NCBI RefSeq assembly: GCF_900403705.1 | Contig: NZ_OUNR01000001.1 | Span: forward strand, 868,001-932,000 | Direction of reading: 5' to 3' | Length of the DNA stretch: 64,000 nucleotides | DNA from: Nitrospira lenta | Lineage (GTDB): Bacteria; Nitrospirota; Nitrospiria; Nitrospirales; Nitrospiraceae | Notes under the pieces: generated by a model | Told to the model about the DNA's origin: nothing | Database searches by the model: none | What the model saw: the letters and a program-made list of their open reading frames with translations, nothing else | Shown here: positions 1 to 46,992 of the stretch, one piece after another | Numbering within the stretch: the first letter of the stretch is position 1 | Layout of the letters: each line of letters starts with the position of its first letter | Made by a program: the position numbers and the translations under genes

Positions 1-797
1 TCCAGAGCCAGCGTGAGACACTTGGCCGACCCGCCGGACTTCATGAATTCGTCCAACGGCAGAGCGTGCGTTCGATATCCGCGGGATTGAAGCTGCTGTT
101 CCGTCTCGGGACATCCGGCGGGCAACACCACATATTTTCCCACACACACCGCATTGCACGCGAACCGGAGGGCTTCGCTTTCGGGAACGACGAGGCGAAA
201 CCCATCGGGCACCCGCTCCGTGATGACCTCCTGTCCATCCGTATCGAACGCCGCGGGAAAGTAGAGCAGCTCGCCGCCGGACAGGGGACAGAAGCACGTA
301 TCGAGATGGTAGAAACGTCCGTCGACAAGTTCGAGGGGAATGATCTCCTGCGTGAAGACCTCGCTAAGCAGGGGGAACACCCGTATATCCGATCGCTGGC
401 GATAGCCTCCGAACCAGCAATCTGAAAACCCCAGCAGGTCCCCGGCGCCTTCGAAAAAGAACTCGGGCTCCAAGGTCACCACGTCATAGCCGGCGCTGCG
501 AAACCAATCCTCGAAATAGGCTTCCTCCCGTTGACGCTCGGGATAGCGAAACCGGCTAACGACCGCTCGCCGGCCGACGACCACACCGGCATTGGCAGTA
601 AACACCAAATCCGGCAACCCCGGCACCGGGCGCATCCGCTCCAGTACCACTCCGGCTTTCCGCTCAAGCACATGCATGAGCCCGTGCCACTGCCTAACGG
701 CACTGACACGATCGACCGTGTTGGAACGCCGCATCCAGGGATTGATCTCATACTCGATGTCGAAATAGTCCGGAGGACAGACCAACAGCCGGCTCAC
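1..797 (-). CDS. amidinotransferase-fold arginine hydrolase (DDAH/AgrE N-domain type), 3' end outside window
   Basis: Reads open from a GTG at 797 to the window edge, about 265 residues. Features of the guanidino-group hydrolase (pentein) fold are visible: an N-terminal CPPDYFDIEYEINPWM stretch, TANAG near residue 70, FFEGAGD near 115, a candidate catalytic His at 164 in YHLDTC, and a candidate nucleophile Cys at 260 in SGGSAKCLTL. Family knowledge: such enzymes hydrolyse arginine or methylated arginines, and the closest architecture is the N-terminal domain of cyanobacterial AgrE/ArgZ. The GTG overlaps the TGA of the upstream LOR/SDH gene (GTGA), so the two are very probably translationally coupled. 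The last residues lie beyond position 1. The exact substrate (arginine or dimethylarginine) cannot be settled from sequence. Confidence 0.85.
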   Translation of the reverse strand, partial: MSRLLVCPPDYFDIEYEINPWMRRSNTVDRVSAVRQWHGLMHVLERKAGVVLERMRPVPGLPDLVFTANAGVVVGRRAVVSRFRYPERQREEAYFEDWFRSAGYDVVTLEPEFFFEGAGDLLGFSDCWFGGYRQRSDIRVFPLLSEVFTQEIIPLELVDGRFYHLDTCFCPLSGGELLYFPAAFDTDGQEVITERVPDGFRLVVPESEALRFACNAVCVGKYVVLPAGCPETEQQLQSRGYRTHALPLDEFMKSGGSAKCLTLAL

Positions 798-2038
798 AGA
801 GACCTCCCGAGTTGCCTGGCCAGTTCGTTGAGAAAGGAGGCCGCATCCATCACCAGACCGACGGCTTGGAAACTGCCTCGATCGGCAAGCTTCGTGGGAA
901 CCGACGCATTGATATCGACACAGACGGTCGGCACGGACGCGGGAAGCAGATTCCCGGTGGCCACCGCATGCAGCGTGGAGGCGACCAATAGTGCCAACCC
1001 GACTCCCGGAATGGCTTCCCGCATGGCCGCTTGCGCGCGCATGGAATCTGTGATGACACCGGGCAATGGGCCATCGTCTCTGATCGTGCCGGCCATCACG
1101 ACATGAACCCCGGTCTTGATACAGGCCGCCATGATGCCGCGCTTGATCGTTCCTGATTCGACGGCATCCCGAATGCTGCCGATGGCTCGAATCCGGTTGA
1201 TGGTCCGCAGGTGATGCGCATGCCCATGCGGAACCGCGTGACCGGCATTCATCGCATAGCCTAACGAGGTTCCGTACATATCGGCCTCCATATCATGAGC
1301 GGCCAGGGCATTGCCGCAGAACAGGACATGGATGAACCCTTCCTCGATCAACCAGGTCAACGCATCCCGCCCACCGGCATGGATGATGGCCGGTCCTCCG
1401 GCTAGCAGTACCTTGGCTTGCCCGCTTCCCGCCCGCCGCTCCTCACGAAGCATGCGCATTCGCCGGGCCACGTCGGCAATGACGTGGCTATGCGGACGCT
1501 CAGCGGACACCTTTGATTCCATGAAGGCAAACACGTCACGTTCGCGAGGGCGCTGCAACGGCATCACGCGCACACCCGCCTGGCCGGTCACGATCAGATC
1601 TCCCTTGCGGACATCGGCCATCGGAACTGTTCGAGCGGTCATGTGCTGTAGATCCACAGTAATGCCCAGGTCCATCTCGACCCGTTGGACATCCACCCAG
1701 GTCTCGTTCAGGCGAACTTCGGTCGGCAGATGGGTAGTGGAATAGAACTCGTCAGGGAATATGCCGTCGGCGGGTGCCGGCTGCACGGCACAATCGGAAT
1801 CCCGCTCGACCACAGCGCCGTGCGGCTGAATCGCACGCAGAATATGGTTCAACGTCGCGGGCGTCGGAGCCCGTACGACAATCCTCGCCTGCGACTGGTC
1901 CTCCCGGGTGCGGCCGATCTCGACCTGATCGAGATCGAACGAGCCTCCCATCATCAGAATCAGATCCAGGACCTTCGCCAGGATCAGAGAGTCGATAATG
2001 TGGCCACGCAGAACGATCGTTTCTTGAGCCGTCGTCAT
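794..2038 (-). CDS. LOR/SDH-family protein, ornithine cyclodeaminase-like (TIGR00300 type)
   Basis: 414 residues, a full-length member of the LOR/SDH bifunctional-enzyme conserved-domain family. The N-terminal about 110 residues form the LOR/SDH domain (GHIIDSLILAKVLD, then FPDEFYSTTHLPTEVR). The remainder resembles the NAD-binding ornithine cyclodeaminase part of cyanobacterial AgrE/ArgZ and archaeal OCD: LLAGGPAIIHAGG, the FCGNALAAHDMEADMYGTSLG region and VVMAGTIRDDGPLPGV. Proposed role, from the family: NAD-dependent conversion of ornithine to proline and ammonia. It is the first gene of a two-gene unit, and its stop overlaps the GTG of the arginine hydrolase by four bases. Arginine to ornithine to proline is the likely flow. 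Confident in family, less so in reaction. Confidence 0.85.
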   Translation of the reverse strand: MTTAQETIVLRGHIIDSLILAKVLDLILMMGGSFDLDQVEIGRTREDQSQARIVVRAPTPATLNHILRAIQPHGAVVERDSDCAVQPAPADGIFPDEFYSTTHLPTEVRLNETWVDVQRVEMDLGITVDLQHMTARTVPMADVRKGDLIVTGQAGVRVMPLQRPRERDVFAFMESKVSAERPHSHVIADVARRMRMLREERRAGSGQAKVLLAGGPAIIHAGGRDALTWLIEEGFIHVLFCGNALAAHDMEADMYGTSLGYAMNAGHAVPHGHAHHLRTINRIRAIGSIRDAVESGTIKRGIMAACIKTGVHVVMAGTIRDDGPLPGVITDSMRAQAAMREAIPGVGLALLVASTLHAVATGNLLPASVPTVCVDINASVPTKLADRGSFQAVGLVMDAASFLNELARQLGRSL

Positions 2039-41893: not shown

Positions 41894-42160
41894 CTATCGT
41901 GTTCCGACCGGTCGTAACGGCGGCAATTCTTCGTCTTGCCCTTTTGGCTCCACCGGCTCTAGCGGAACCGCCGCCCCCGAGGTATTGTCCGCTCGCTGCA
42001 CCGTACCAGACTTCTGCAGCTGTATCTTCTGTCTGGTGATCGTCGGATTGACGCCCACGTTCTCCGGAGCCACGGGCGAGCCCACGACGCCGCAGGCCGT
42101 CACCACGGTCAATACAGTGACGCTCACACCAGCCAAAAAAATGTAGCTCGTTTGCGTCAT
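41894..42160 (-). CDS. LptM/LppL-like small lipoprotein
   Basis: 88 residues. Signal with lipobox VLTVVTACG, then CGVVGSPVAPEN, similar in style to the LptM lipoprotein start (CGxxGPLxxP). The rest is Pro-rich and disordered. In other bacteria such a gene lies next to lysA, and LptM helps the LPS translocon LptDE mature. Here it lies between argH and lysA, which supports the call. Its start overlaps the argH stop. Confidence 0.65.
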   Translation of the reverse strand: MTQTSYIFLAGVSVTVLTVVTACGVVGSPVAPENVGVNPTITRQKIQLQKSGTVQRADNTSGAAVPLEPVEPKGQDEELPPLRPVGTR

Positions 42161-43572
42161 GCCAACAACTTCGTTAGTTCTTTGAGGCGGCGAACCACTT
42201 GCGCCCTGGCAGTCCCGCCGATTTGCGACTTCCGGTCGATCGCGCCCTGCACCGTGAGCCGTTGCAACACGGACTTCTCAAAGCGGGGCGAAAACACGCC
42301 GAGCTCTTTGACCGTGAGGTCGGAAAGTTCGCGCCCGGCATCCAACGCCCAGCGGACGATCTTGCCGGTAATCGCGTGCGCCTCCCGAAAGGGCACGCCC
42401 CTGGTCACTAAATAGTCGGCGAGCTCTGTCGCCAACATCCCGCCGCCCGTCAAGGCGCGAGTCAGCGCCGCCCGATCTACTTTGAGTCGGCGCATCAACT
42501 CCGTCATGACTTCGACACAGTCTTGCGTCGTATCGAGAGCGTCGAACAGGGCCGGCTTATCTTCCTGCAAATCGCGGTTATAGCTGAGCGGCAACGCTTT
42601 CAACGTCGTCATCAATCCGATGAGATGACCATAGACGCGGCCGGTCTTTCCACGCACCAGTTCGGGCACGTCAGGATTCTTTTTCTGAGGCATCATGCTG
42701 CTGCCGGTGCAGAATCCGTCCGGCAGATCGACAAAATGAAACTCTTGCGTGGCCCAGAGAATAAGTTCTTCGCTCATGCGCGACAAATGCATCATGATGA
42801 CCGCCAGCGCCGCCGCCACTTCGATCATGAAATCGCGATCGGATACCGCATCAAGACTGTTCTGCGTGACCGCGGGAAAGTCCAGCAACGTCGCGGTGTA
42901 AAGCCGGTCCACCGGGTAATTCGATCCCGCCAGCGCCCCGGACCCCAACGGCATCACGTTGACACGCGTCCGGGCATCCGCAAGACGCGCCTGATCGCGC
43001 AAAAACATTTCCACGTACGCGAGCAGATGATGCGCCAACAACACCGGTTGGGCGCGCTGCAAATGCGTGTAGCCCGGCATCGGCACATCGAGATGTTTCG
43101 TCGCCTGCGCGACGAGCACGCGCTGGAATTCCGTAAGCCGTTCGATCAGGACCGTGAGCTGCTCACGCACATAGAGCCGCACGTCGAGCGCCACTTGATC
43201 GTTCCGGCTGCGCCCCGTGTGCAATTTTCCGCCGAGCGGACCGATCAACTCGGTCAATCGGCGCTCGATCGCCATGTGAATATCTTCGTCTTCCGGCAGA
43301 AACTTGAAGCGCTCCCGCTCCAGTTCGTGCTGCACCAGCTGCAAGCCTCGTACAATCGCCGCCTGGTCGCGGCGGCTGAGCACACCGGCCTTCGCCAGTG
43401 TCTGGCAATGGGCGATGCTGCCGCGGATATCCTGCGGGTACAGCCGCTTATCCACCGCGATGGAGCGAGAAAAGGCTTCCACTAACCGATCGGTAGGCTC
43501 GCGAAAACGCCCCGCCCAGGCCTTGCTCGGCTGCTTGCCTGCCCCCGCTTTGCCGGATTTCCGACTGGCCAT
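42157..43572 (-). CDS. argH: argininosuccinate lyase
   Basis: 471 residues. Splits argininosuccinate into arginine and fumarate. Signature GSSMMPQKKNPDVPEL carries the catalytic Ser loop; TGRSRNDQVALDVRL and GYTHLQRAQPV are also intact. Its start overlaps the argG stop by one base, so the two share a transcript. Tail reads IGGTARAQVVRRLKELTKLL. Confidence 0.97.
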   Translation of the reverse strand: MASRKSGKAGAGKQPSKAWAGRFREPTDRLVEAFSRSIAVDKRLYPQDIRGSIAHCQTLAKAGVLSRRDQAAIVRGLQLVQHELERERFKFLPEDEDIHMAIERRLTELIGPLGGKLHTGRSRNDQVALDVRLYVREQLTVLIERLTEFQRVLVAQATKHLDVPMPGYTHLQRAQPVLLAHHLLAYVEMFLRDQARLADARTRVNVMPLGSGALAGSNYPVDRLYTATLLDFPAVTQNSLDAVSDRDFMIEVAAALAVIMMHLSRMSEELILWATQEFHFVDLPDGFCTGSSMMPQKKNPDVPELVRGKTGRVYGHLIGLMTTLKALPLSYNRDLQEDKPALFDALDTTQDCVEVMTELMRRLKVDRAALTRALTGGGMLATELADYLVTRGVPFREAHAITGKIVRWALDAGRELSDLTVKELGVFSPRFEKSVLQRLTVQGAIDRKSQIGGTARAQVVRRLKELTKLLA

Positions 43573-44786
43573 TAGGACTTCGCTTTCCGCCTTTGCGCCC
43601 GAATCTTCAATCGCAACGCATTCAACCGGATGAAGCCCTCCGCATCTTTCTGGTTGTACACATCGTCTTCTTCAAACGTCGCAATATCCAACCGGTAGAG
43701 AGAATTCTTCGACTTCCGACCGGCGAGGGTGCAACTGCCCTTATAGAGCTTGACGCGAGCCGTCCCCGAGACATCTTTTTGCGCTTCATCGATGGCCACT
43801 TGCATCATTTCCCGTTCCGGGCTGAACCAGTACCCGTTGTAGATCAGATCGGCATACCGCGGGATCAGACTGTCACGGAAGTGCAGCACTTCGCGATCCA
43901 TCGTCAGCGATTCCAGACCGCGATGCGCGACGTGCAGGATTGTCCCGCCCGGCGTTTCGTACACGCCACGGGACTTCATCCCGACGTACCGATTTTCAAC
44001 CAGATCGACCCGGCCGACCCCGTGCGCCCCACCCAGCTTATTGAGATGCGCCAGTAGCTTGGCCGGACTCATCTTCTTGCCGTCGACGGCAACCGGGTTC
44101 CCCCGCTCATACTCGATTTCAACTTCCAGCGGTTTGTTAGGCGCCTTCTCGGGAGACACCGTCATCTGGAATATTTCTTCCGGCGGAGACTTCCAGGGAT
44201 CTTCAAGAATGCCGCCCTCGTAGCTCACGTGAAAGAGATTCAGATCCATGCTGTAGGGCTTGGCTTTCGTCGCCGTCACGGGAATGCCGTGCCGGTCCGC
44301 GTACTCGATACATTCGCGACGCGATCGCAGCGTCCACTCGCGCCAGGGTGCGATGATCTTCAGACCGGGAGCCAGCGCCATATAGGTGAGCTCGAACCGC
44401 ACCTGATCGTTGCCTTTTCCGGTGGCGCCATGAGACACGGCCTCGGCACCTTCCTGAAGCGCAATTTCGGCCTGTCGGCGGGCGATGAGGGGCCGCGCAA
44501 TCGACGTCCCCAGCAAGTAGCAGCCTTCATACATCGCGTTGCCGCGCAACATCGGAAACACGTAGTCCTTGACGAAGGTCTCGCGCAGATCCTCGACATA
44601 GACTTTCTTCACGCCGAGCTTTTTGGCCTTCGCCTTAATCGCCTGCAAATCTTCGCCCTGGCCGAGGTCTGCGCAAAACGCAATCACTTCTGCCTGATAG
44701 GTTTCCTGCAACCACTTCAAGATAACCGAGGTATCCAGTCCGCCGGAATAGGCGAGAACAATTTTCTTGATCGATGTCTGTTTCAT
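43572..44786 (-). CDS. argG: argininosuccinate synthase
   Basis: 404 residues. Joins citrulline and aspartate using ATP. ATP-binding motif [15 protein letters not shown] at the start; [13 protein letters not shown] near residue 120 and [15 protein letters not shown] further in. Length is typical. Ten bases follow the argF stop, so both are in the argD-F-G-H operon. Confidence 0.97.
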
Positions 44787-44795
44787 AATGCGCGC

Positions 44796-45773
44796 TTAGG
44801 CCCTGCCTTTCTTCTGAGTCAGCAACTGAACCAAAATGGCTTTCTGCATGTGCAGCCGGTTTTCCGCCTGATCGATAATGACGGACTGCGGTCCGTCGAG
44901 CACCTCGGCGGTAATTTCCTCTCCGCGATGCGCCGGCAGGCAATGCATGACGATGGCATCGGGCTTCGCCTTCTGCAGCAACCGCCCGTTCAACTGATAG
45001 GGCGCCAGCGTCCGCAGGCGCCGCGCCTGTTCCCGTTCCCGCCCCATACTGATCCACACATCGGTATACAGGACATCGGCATCTTTCACGGCAATCTGCG
45101 GATCGACTCCGACCTCGATGTCCGATCCGTTGCGGGCCGCTTCCACGCGAGCTCGGTCCACCACATGCTGATCCGGCTGATACCCGACCGGGCACCCCAA
45201 GGCGATGTGCATCCCCACCTTGGCGGCCGCTTCTATCAGCGAATTCGCGACATTGTTCCCGTCGCCGATATAGGCGAGCTTTACGCCTTTGAAGCGCCCC
45301 TTCTTTTCCTTGATGGTCATCAGATCGGACAGCGCCTGACAGGGATGGCTCAGATCGGTCAGTCCGTTAATCACCGGCATGGTGGCTTCCTCCGCCCACT
45401 CCTGCACGATGCCGTGATCGTAGGTGCGGATCACGATTCCATCGAGATAACGAGACAGCACGCGCGCGGTGTCCGCCACACTCTCGCCCCGCGAGAGCTG
45501 AATATCCGCCATGGGCAAGACCATCGCATGGCCGCCCAACTGATTCATACCGGCTTCAAACGACACTCTGGTCCTTGTCGACGGCTTCTGGAAGAGCAGC
45601 CCGAGTGTCTTGCCCTCCAGCAGAGAATGCGAAATCCCCCGCCGCAGCTTCATTTTCAGCGCTGTCGCCAGCCGCAGCAAGGCGTCGATTTGGGGACGCG
45701 GCATCGTCGCCACATCCAGTAAATCTTTCGCAAAGGCGGCGGTCCGTTTCTTCGATGTCCGTGAAGTCGCCAT
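44796..45773 (-). CDS. argF: ornithine carbamoyltransferase
   Basis: 325 residues. Makes citrulline from ornithine and carbamoyl phosphate. Carbamoyl-phosphate motif FQKPSTRTRVSFE; ornithine-binding motifs MHCLPAHRGEEI and DVWISMG. HPCQALSDLMT contains the His of the site. Stands one base after the argD stop, so coupled to it. Confidence 0.97.
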   Translation of the reverse strand: MATSRTSKKRTAAFAKDLLDVATMPRPQIDALLRLATALKMKLRRGISHSLLEGKTLGLLFQKPSTRTRVSFEAGMNQLGGHAMVLPMADIQLSRGESVADTARVLSRYLDGIVIRTYDHGIVQEWAEEATMPVINGLTDLSHPCQALSDLMTIKEKKGRFKGVKLAYIGDGNNVANSLIEAAAKVGMHIALGCPVGYQPDQHVVDRARVEAARNGSDIEVGVDPQIAVKDADVLYTDVWISMGREREQARRLRTLAPYQLNGRLLQKAKPDAIVMHCLPAHRGEEITAEVLDGPQSVIIDQAENRLHMQKAILVQLLTQKKGRA

Positions 45774-45774
45774 G

Positions 45775-46992
45775 TCAGTGCTGCTGATCCTTTTCCGCCA
45801 TCGTCCGCTGATTGAAGATCGACGACAAGACGTCCAAAACGCGATCGACTTCCGCCTGAGTAATGATCAGCGGCGGAACAAAGCGTAACACCCGTTCACT
45901 GGTGGCATTCACCAGGACGCCGCGAGTCAGACAGTCCGCGACAACCGCCTTCGCATCGATCTCCACTTCCAATCCCTGCAATAAGCCCAGTCCGCGAACA
46001 TCCCGCACCGCGCGATGGCGGTCTTTGAAATCGGCCAACCCCTTGGAGAGATAATCCCCCATGCGCCGGGCCTGCTCGAGCATGCGGCCTTCGATCAACA
46101 GCCGACAGACCGCGAGCCCTGCAGCGCAGGCCAGCGGATTGCCGCCGAATGTCGAGGCGTGCGTCCCGGCAGTGAACACCGCCGCGACCGCGTCCTTTGC
46201 CAGACAGGCCCCGATCGGCATCCCGCCGCCGAGTCCCTTGGCAAGCGTCATGATGTCGGGCTCCACGCCCAGCTGTTCATAGGCAAACAACGTCCCGGTT
46301 CGCCCCATTCCTGTCTGAACTTCGTCGAAAATCAGGAGAATATCTTTCTGCGTGCAGAGCTCCCGCAGATTTTTCAGATAAGCGTGATCGGCGACATGCA
46401 CGCCTCCCTCACCCTGGATCGGCTCCAGCATGATCGCGGTGGTCTTGTCCGTGACAAGCGCTTCAATTGCTGCAAAATCGTTGAAGGGCGCATAGGCAAA
46501 CCCCGGCACGAGCGGCTCAAAGCCTTTCTGCACCTTTTCCTGGCCGGTCGCCGTCAGCGTCGCCATCGTGCGGCCGTGGAAAGAGTTCTTCATCGTGATG
46601 ATCTCAAACCGGTCCGCGCCGTGTTTCTCATGCCCGTAGCGCCGTGCCAGCTTGATCGCTGCTTCATTCGCCTCCGCGCCGCTGTTGCAGAAAAAGATCC
46701 GGTCGGCGAACGAATGATCCACCAGCATTTGCGCGAGTCTGACTTGCGGCTCGGTGTAGTAGAGATTCGATACATGAATCAGCTGCGCCGCCTGGCGCTG
46801 GATCGCTTGCACCAAATCCGGATGGCCATGGCCCAAAATATTGACCGCGATGCCACCGACAAAGTCGATGTACTCCCGGCCTTCCATATCGTAGACCTTG
46901 GCCCCACGCCCCCGCACGATTGAAATCGGCTGGCGCGCATAGGTTTGCATCAAATACTTGGCGGCTAAATCTTTGAGTTCCTCTGTCGGCAT
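45775..46992 (-). CDS. argD: acetylornithine aminotransferase
   Basis: 405 residues. PLP enzyme converting acetylglutamate semialdehyde to acetylornithine; related enzymes also act on succinyl-DAP. Motifs: FCNSGAEANEAAIKLAR, ILLIFDEVQTGMGRTG and the PLP Lys in TLAKGLGGGMPIG. First gene of the arginine cluster. About 220 bases upstream on the other side hold no gene and probably carry the promoter. Confidence 0.95.
   Translation of the reverse strand: MPTEELKDLAAKYLMQTYARQPISIVRGRGAKVYDMEGREYIDFVGGIAVNILGHGHPDLVQAIQRQAAQLIHVSNLYYTEPQVRLAQMLVDHSFADRIFFCNSGAEANEAAIKLARRYGHEKHGADRFEIITMKNSFHGRTMATLTATGQEKVQKGFEPLVPGFAYAPFNDFAAIEALVTDKTTAIMLEPIQGEGGVHVADHAYLKNLRELCTQKDILLIFDEVQTGMGRTGTLFAYEQLGVEPDIMTLAKGLGGGMPIGACLAKDAVAAVFTAGTHASTFGGNPLACAAGLAVCRLLIEGRMLEQARRMGDYLSKGLADFKDRHRAVRDVRGLGLLQGLEVEIDAKAVVADCLTRGVLVNATSERVLRFVPPLIITQAEVDRVLDVLSSIFNQRTMAEKDQQH

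Follow-up and report, generated by a model that had tools for sequence, protein, structure and literature searches.

An overlapping cyclodeaminase and pentein gene pair in Nitrospira lenta as a candidate two-gene route for arginine breakdown

The gene pair and its products

The window analysed here is a stretch of 64,000 nucleotides (G000:C1:868001-932000) from the Nitrospira lenta genome (G000), which spans 3.76 Mb and is 99.98% complete. Two overlapping genes occupy its first positions, with the following features:

794..2038, minus strand: predicted ornithine cyclodeaminase of the LOR/SDH type with 414 aa, encoded first in the pair (TIGR00300, Pfam and PDB matches)
1..797, minus strand: arginine-dihydrolase-like pentein, second gene of the pair, its 3' end lying beyond the window (ArgZ match, 13 residues)
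794..797, minus strand: GTGA overlap of 4 nt, where the cyclodeaminase reading frame ends and that of the pentein begins (sequence reading)
about 803..808, minus strand: GGGAGG, putative Shine-Dalgarno-like element 5 nt before the pentein GTG (sequence reading)

An earlier note on this DNA had described overlapping genes for a LOR/SDH-type protein and a pentein hydrolase, encoded separately and in the reverse of the ArgZ/AgrE order. This arrangement is real: both genes lie on the minus strand, the cyclodeaminase is encoded first, and the frames share the four nucleotides GTGA, allowing potential translational coupling of the two products. Flanking DNA read beyond the window edge yielded the complete pentein gene (G000:C1:867997-868797), which encodes 266 aa from a GTG start codon at 797 to a C-terminus reading ...KSGGSAKCLTLALD*.

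The product of the first gene scored 466.6 bits against TIGR00300, the NCBI curated family 'ornithine cyclodeaminase, nickel-pincer nucleotide-dependent', for which the curated equivalog cut-off is 410.8, and the match covered residues 7-410 of 414. Its Pfam domains (Saccharop_dh_N, ArgZ-like_C_1st and ArgZ-like_C_2nd) are those of the C-terminal half of AgrE/ArgZ, and its nearest solved structures are an archaeal protein (3c2q, E 1e-93) and the C-terminal half of AgrE (6lrf, E 1e-89). These matches indicate that the first gene very probably encodes an ornithine cyclodeaminase.

The nearest solved structures to the pentein are the N-terminal half of ArgZ Sll1336 (6juy, E 4e-72) and AgrE, with identities of 44% to ArgZ and 40% to AgrE; across both parts of the enzyme, identity is about 40-44%. 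Matches to solved structures at this level settle the fold. The best-scoring NCBI model was the arginine dihydrolase NF052232, at 288.2 bits against an equivalog-domain cut-off of 450; since the protein lies under the cut-offs of both this model and the dimethylargininase model NF045659, it is named here arginine-dihydrolase-like, and no formal equivalog membership is claimed. All 13 residues compared are identical to those of ArgZ, among them the ones aligned with Cys264, His168 and Asn71 (ArgZ residue numbers being the chain index minus 2) and with its acidic and Arg residues, and the same 13 are invariant across 162 aligned penteins. The pentein positions equivalent to Cys264, His168 and Asn71 presumably hold the corresponding catalytic roles. 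With its 3' end recovered, the pentein keeps the catalytic Cys and the whole ArgZ residue set, bearing out the hydrolase assignment that the earlier note had made from the truncated gene. There is a strong likelihood that the pentein acts as an arginine dihydrolase.

Distribution and predicted arginine breakdown

Among 198 Nitrospirota genomes, the cyclodeaminase was detected in 52, above the cut-off in 51 and as a frame broken in two in the other (G195). The pentein gene directly follows it in all 52, on the same strand and in the same order. This constancy of adjacency, strand and order leads us to reject a chance neighbourhood. At L089:6034-7360 (G195) and G187:C1:2936975-2938181 the cyclodeaminase frame consists of two overlapping pieces next to an intact pentein gene, which may reflect sequencing error or decay.

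A named genome collection was also scanned with a pentein alignment as a Nitrospirota-centred query, and the best 80 loci were kept. These fall in the Nitrospirota, Chloroflexota, Omnitrophota, Planctomycetota, Verrucomicrobiota, NC10, Armatimonadota and a deltaproteobacterium. A cyclodeaminase gene was found upstream on the same strand in 50 of the 80 (49 within about 250 bp and one 2 kb off), always in the order cyclodeaminase to pentein, and 21 of the 30 remaining genomes encode an above-cut-off cyclodeaminase elsewhere. No fusion was present among these 80 loci; as they are the best matches to a Nitrospirota-centred query, this reflects the lower rank of cyanobacterial fusions and not their absence. 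A recurring third partner was sought across phyla and none was identified outside lineage-specific synteny, in output made noisy by antisense shadow ORFs.

The bifunctional AgrE/ArgZ architecture (NF052231), with one polypeptide and the pentein first, differs from that of N. lenta, which has two genes in reverse order. A tree with the archaeal homologue as its root places the cyclodeaminase domain of AgrE outside all the two-gene cyclodeaminases, on a long branch, and hence gives no sign that the N. lenta pair derives from a fusion. Likewise, the wide occurrence of the two-gene form argues that the pair is no broken fusion peculiar to this genome. The earlier description of the locus as the fused enzyme in split form is consequently not supported, given a cyclodeaminase-first form in at least eight phyla and an AgrE domain that branches outside it. 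With this distribution, the AgrE/ArgZ route would no longer be particular to cyanobacteria and would exist as a two-gene module in at least eight phyla, nitrifying Nitrospira included.

In cyanobacteria, the conversion of arginine to proline by AgrE sets free three ammonium and one CO2, and the route continues through PutA to glutamate (PMC8262935). For N. lenta, we infer the reactions and the direction of flux as follows. The pair would be an operon for breaking down arginine, in which the pentein would convert arginine to ornithine, CO2 and two ammonia with no free citrulline, as the N-terminal half of ArgZ/AgrE does, and the separate cyclodeaminase would convert ornithine to proline and a third ammonia, probably with nickel-pincer nucleotide (NPN), for whose synthesis larB and larC are encoded a short way downstream. 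Oxidation of proline to glutamate would then fall to PutA, whose gene lies at another site in the genome. The conversion of arginine to proline and ammonia, already predicted in the earlier note, is well supported as a prediction by the TIGR00300 score above cut-off and the matches to both ArgZ/AgrE halves, and we consider the whole account, comprising pentein, NPN-linked cyclodeaminase and PutA, a likely one.

Several features of the genome bear on the role of the pathway. A proline dehydrogenase is present in G000, in frames of about 1000 aa, the size expected of PutA, and the enzyme was detected in 29 of 30 cyclodeaminase-positive genomes of the class versus two of nine negative ones. Both proB and proC are also present; the pair is hence not needed for proline synthesis, and an essential role in that process was rejected. 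Together, proline dehydrogenase co-occurrence and the presence of proB and proC favour a role in degrading arginine to glutamate over an essential one in making proline, and the pair is probably catabolic in the main. Through it, Nitrospira would return the nitrogen of arginine to glutamate and ammonia. A search of G000 for cyanophycin synthetase returned none above cut-off, only Mur-ligase-like cross-matches, which leaves cyanophycin turnover unsupported as the arginine source.

The same enzymes could instead serve mainly an ornithine-ammonia cycle, as proposed for cyanobacteria (PMC8262935), in which ArgF would reuse most of the ornithine and the cyclodeaminase would act as an overflow valve. 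The genes argD, argF, argG and argH are intact in the window at 42157-46992, as the earlier note had reported, and the unfused state of the pair fits such a cycle in that separate polypeptides would let ornithine escape. However, the strict pairing with the cyclodeaminase and the co-occurrence of proline dehydrogenase fit flow to proline and glutamate, and a futile cycle costs ATP, which together make the cycle unlikely as the main role. The possible balance between synthesis and breakdown that the earlier note had suggested from argDFGH reduces to a shared window: these genes form a separate operon, and a physical link to the pair was rejected on a distance of ~40 kb.

Nickel-pincer nucleotide genes and the cyclodeaminase

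Downstream of the pair and on its strand, larC, larB and gpsA lie at L002:4441-8254 (G000:C1:862441-866254), with larB and larC at 3-6 kb and gpsA between them and the pair. The two lar genes, absent like the nickel-pincer cofactor from the earlier note, are:

G000:C1:864465-865238, outside the window, minus strand: larB, above the NCBI cut-off
G000:C1:862441-863658, outside the window, minus strand: larC, above the NCBI cut-off

The gene order truD, cyclodeaminase, pentein, gpsA, larB, larC is kept in several genera of the Nitrospiraceae, and larC was found at most 10 kb from the pair in 41 of 43 genomes of this family, but never in the nine cyclodeaminase-positive genomes from other families. 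LarE is encoded elsewhere in the N. lenta genome, which thus holds LarB, LarC and LarE, and a search of the same genome for LarA did not find it. Across the Nitrospirota, LarC is present in 150 of 198 genomes, comprising 52 of 52 cyclodeaminase-positive genomes versus 98 of 146 others (Fisher P about 7e-8, a value that overstates the strength of the association because the species are related). The control archaea M. jannaschii and H. volcanii encode TIGR00300 and LarC and no LarA, and the control Synechococcus elongatus encodes LarC with neither the cyclodeaminase nor LarA.

Genomes with larBCE and without larA, many cyanobacteria among them, have been described, and other NPN proteins must exist (2024 paper, PMC11796402); the cyclodeaminase matches this description and bears on the question of non-LarA users in larB/larC/larE genomes. 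No link between nickel-pincer nucleotide and ornithine appeared in the papers searched. With LarE present and LarA absent, the cyclodeaminase is the likeliest NPN client in N. lenta, and we infer from this gene complement that it is quite likely to be NPN-dependent. Three Nitrospiraceae genomes of ~2 Mb (G105, G159 and G163) have no pair and no LarA, yet keep LarC and LarE. Together with the pattern in S. elongatus, they imply that the cyclodeaminase cannot be the sole NPN client and that at least one other exists.

The pair-bearing Verrucomicrobia provide a natural experiment on this dependence. LarC was searched for in 13 pair-bearing Verrucomicrobia-type genomes forming one clade (Verrucomicrobia, Spartobacteria, Chthoniobacterales) and was found in none, while a sister of this clade (L152) encodes LarC and keeps the otherwise invariant residues. 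In all 12 full-length cyclodeaminases aligned from the LarC-negative clade (L116, L118, L124, L126, L129, L136, L139, L142, L145, L147, L153 and L163), W114, G362 and D386 are replaced, and in most of them H220, H248, N363, K383, R387, G388 and others are replaced as well. These residues are invariant or nearly so in 41 LarC-positive cyclodeaminases, L152 included, and the pentein partners of the altered proteins keep every catalytic residue. This suggests that cofactor loss and change in the cyclodeaminase active site went together in this clade. Nearly all the residues are kept in LarC-negative Omnitrophota, Armatimonadota and one Chloroflexi, where the absence of LarC may reflect incompleteness because the genomes are draft MAGs.

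Alternatively, the cyclodeaminase could use bound NAD, or no nickel, with larB and larC nearby as a coincidence of family synteny. Such a coincidence would fit the restriction of larBC proximity to the Nitrospiraceae, the many genomes that carry LarC without the cyclodeaminase and the several pair-bearing MAGs outside the Nitrospirota in which LarC was not detected. It is nevertheless quite unlikely in view of the NPN-dependent family name, the absence of LarA from G000, the co-occurrence of LarC in 52 of 52 genomes and the altered residues of the LarC-negative Verrucomicrobia. Beyond NPN dependence in N. lenta, a wider proposal is put forward tentatively and with somewhat less than even confidence: the two-gene pair may be a common, little-described arginine-to-proline module of non-cyanobacterial phyla, its cyclodeaminase a main NPN client in cofactor-making genomes that lack LarA, and the Verrucomicrobia changes may mark the nickel-cofactor pocket, with a nickel-free or repurposed version in that clade.

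Comparison with known systems

Several families of guanidine-hydrolysing penteins were compared with the N. lenta protein. Its scores fell under the cut-offs of three dimethylargininase models, NF045659 (DdahMtb; 238 bits, cut-off 300), NF045658 (33.9, cut-off 450) and NF045660 (67.6, cut-off 340), and of the arginine deiminase model TIGR01078 (17.3, cut-off 489.1). Annotation relying on such thresholds would probably overlook this gene, whose product scores under those for both arginine dihydrolase and dimethylargininase. It is very unlikely that the pentein hydrolyses dimethylarginine or another guanidine (as a DDAH, arginine deiminase or related enzyme) rather than arginine as a dihydrolase, for although it passes the loose Pfam DDAH_eukar cut-off (34.1 bits versus 23) and comes nearer to NF045659 than to the other two dimethylargininase models, NF052232 scores higher, DDAH structures match far more weakly (E about 1e-8, more than 60 orders of magnitude behind ArgZ/AgrE), Asn occupies in 162 of 162 penteins the position at which the DDAH-like L087 has Asp, and the partner is an ornithine-consuming enzyme. 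L087:6039-6692 is a second pentein of 26-27% identity with Asp replacing the ArgZ-type Asn, seen in several sister-family genomes. ArgZ-like penteins of 37-44% identity, with the same catalytic residues and no cyclodeaminase in the locus, occur at L077-L083 and L076, in genomes where no full-length TIGR00300 match was found.

The pentein resembles Rv2323c of Mycobacterium tuberculosis, likewise a stand-alone pentein in arginine use, and the mycobacterial DDAH model NF045659 is the next-best match to the N. lenta protein. Rv2323c is needed for growth on arginine (PMC4569260), and differs in its annotation as DDAH and in clustering with rocD/rocE, without a cyclodeaminase partner. The cyclodeaminase, in turn, resembles the archaeal stand-alone ornithine cyclodeaminase (TIGR00300; 3c2q), likewise full-length and stand-alone, with 45% identity over 330 aligned residues and similarly LarC-positive, LarA-negative genomes. 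Unlike the archaeal enzyme, that of N. lenta is paired with a pentein hydrolase gene, in a genome that also holds proB and proC.

The closest counterpart of the pair as a whole is the bifunctional arginine dihydrolase-ornithine cyclodeaminase of cyanobacteria, AgrE (Alr4995, Anabaena) and ArgZ (Sll1336, Synechocystis), both parts of which are matched here. The two systems have in common the pentein catalytic set, the expected reactions and a PutA in the genome. N. lenta differs in encoding two polypeptides, with the cyclodeaminase gene first and no fusion linker, and in combining larB/larC neighbours with the absence of cyanophycin synthetase.
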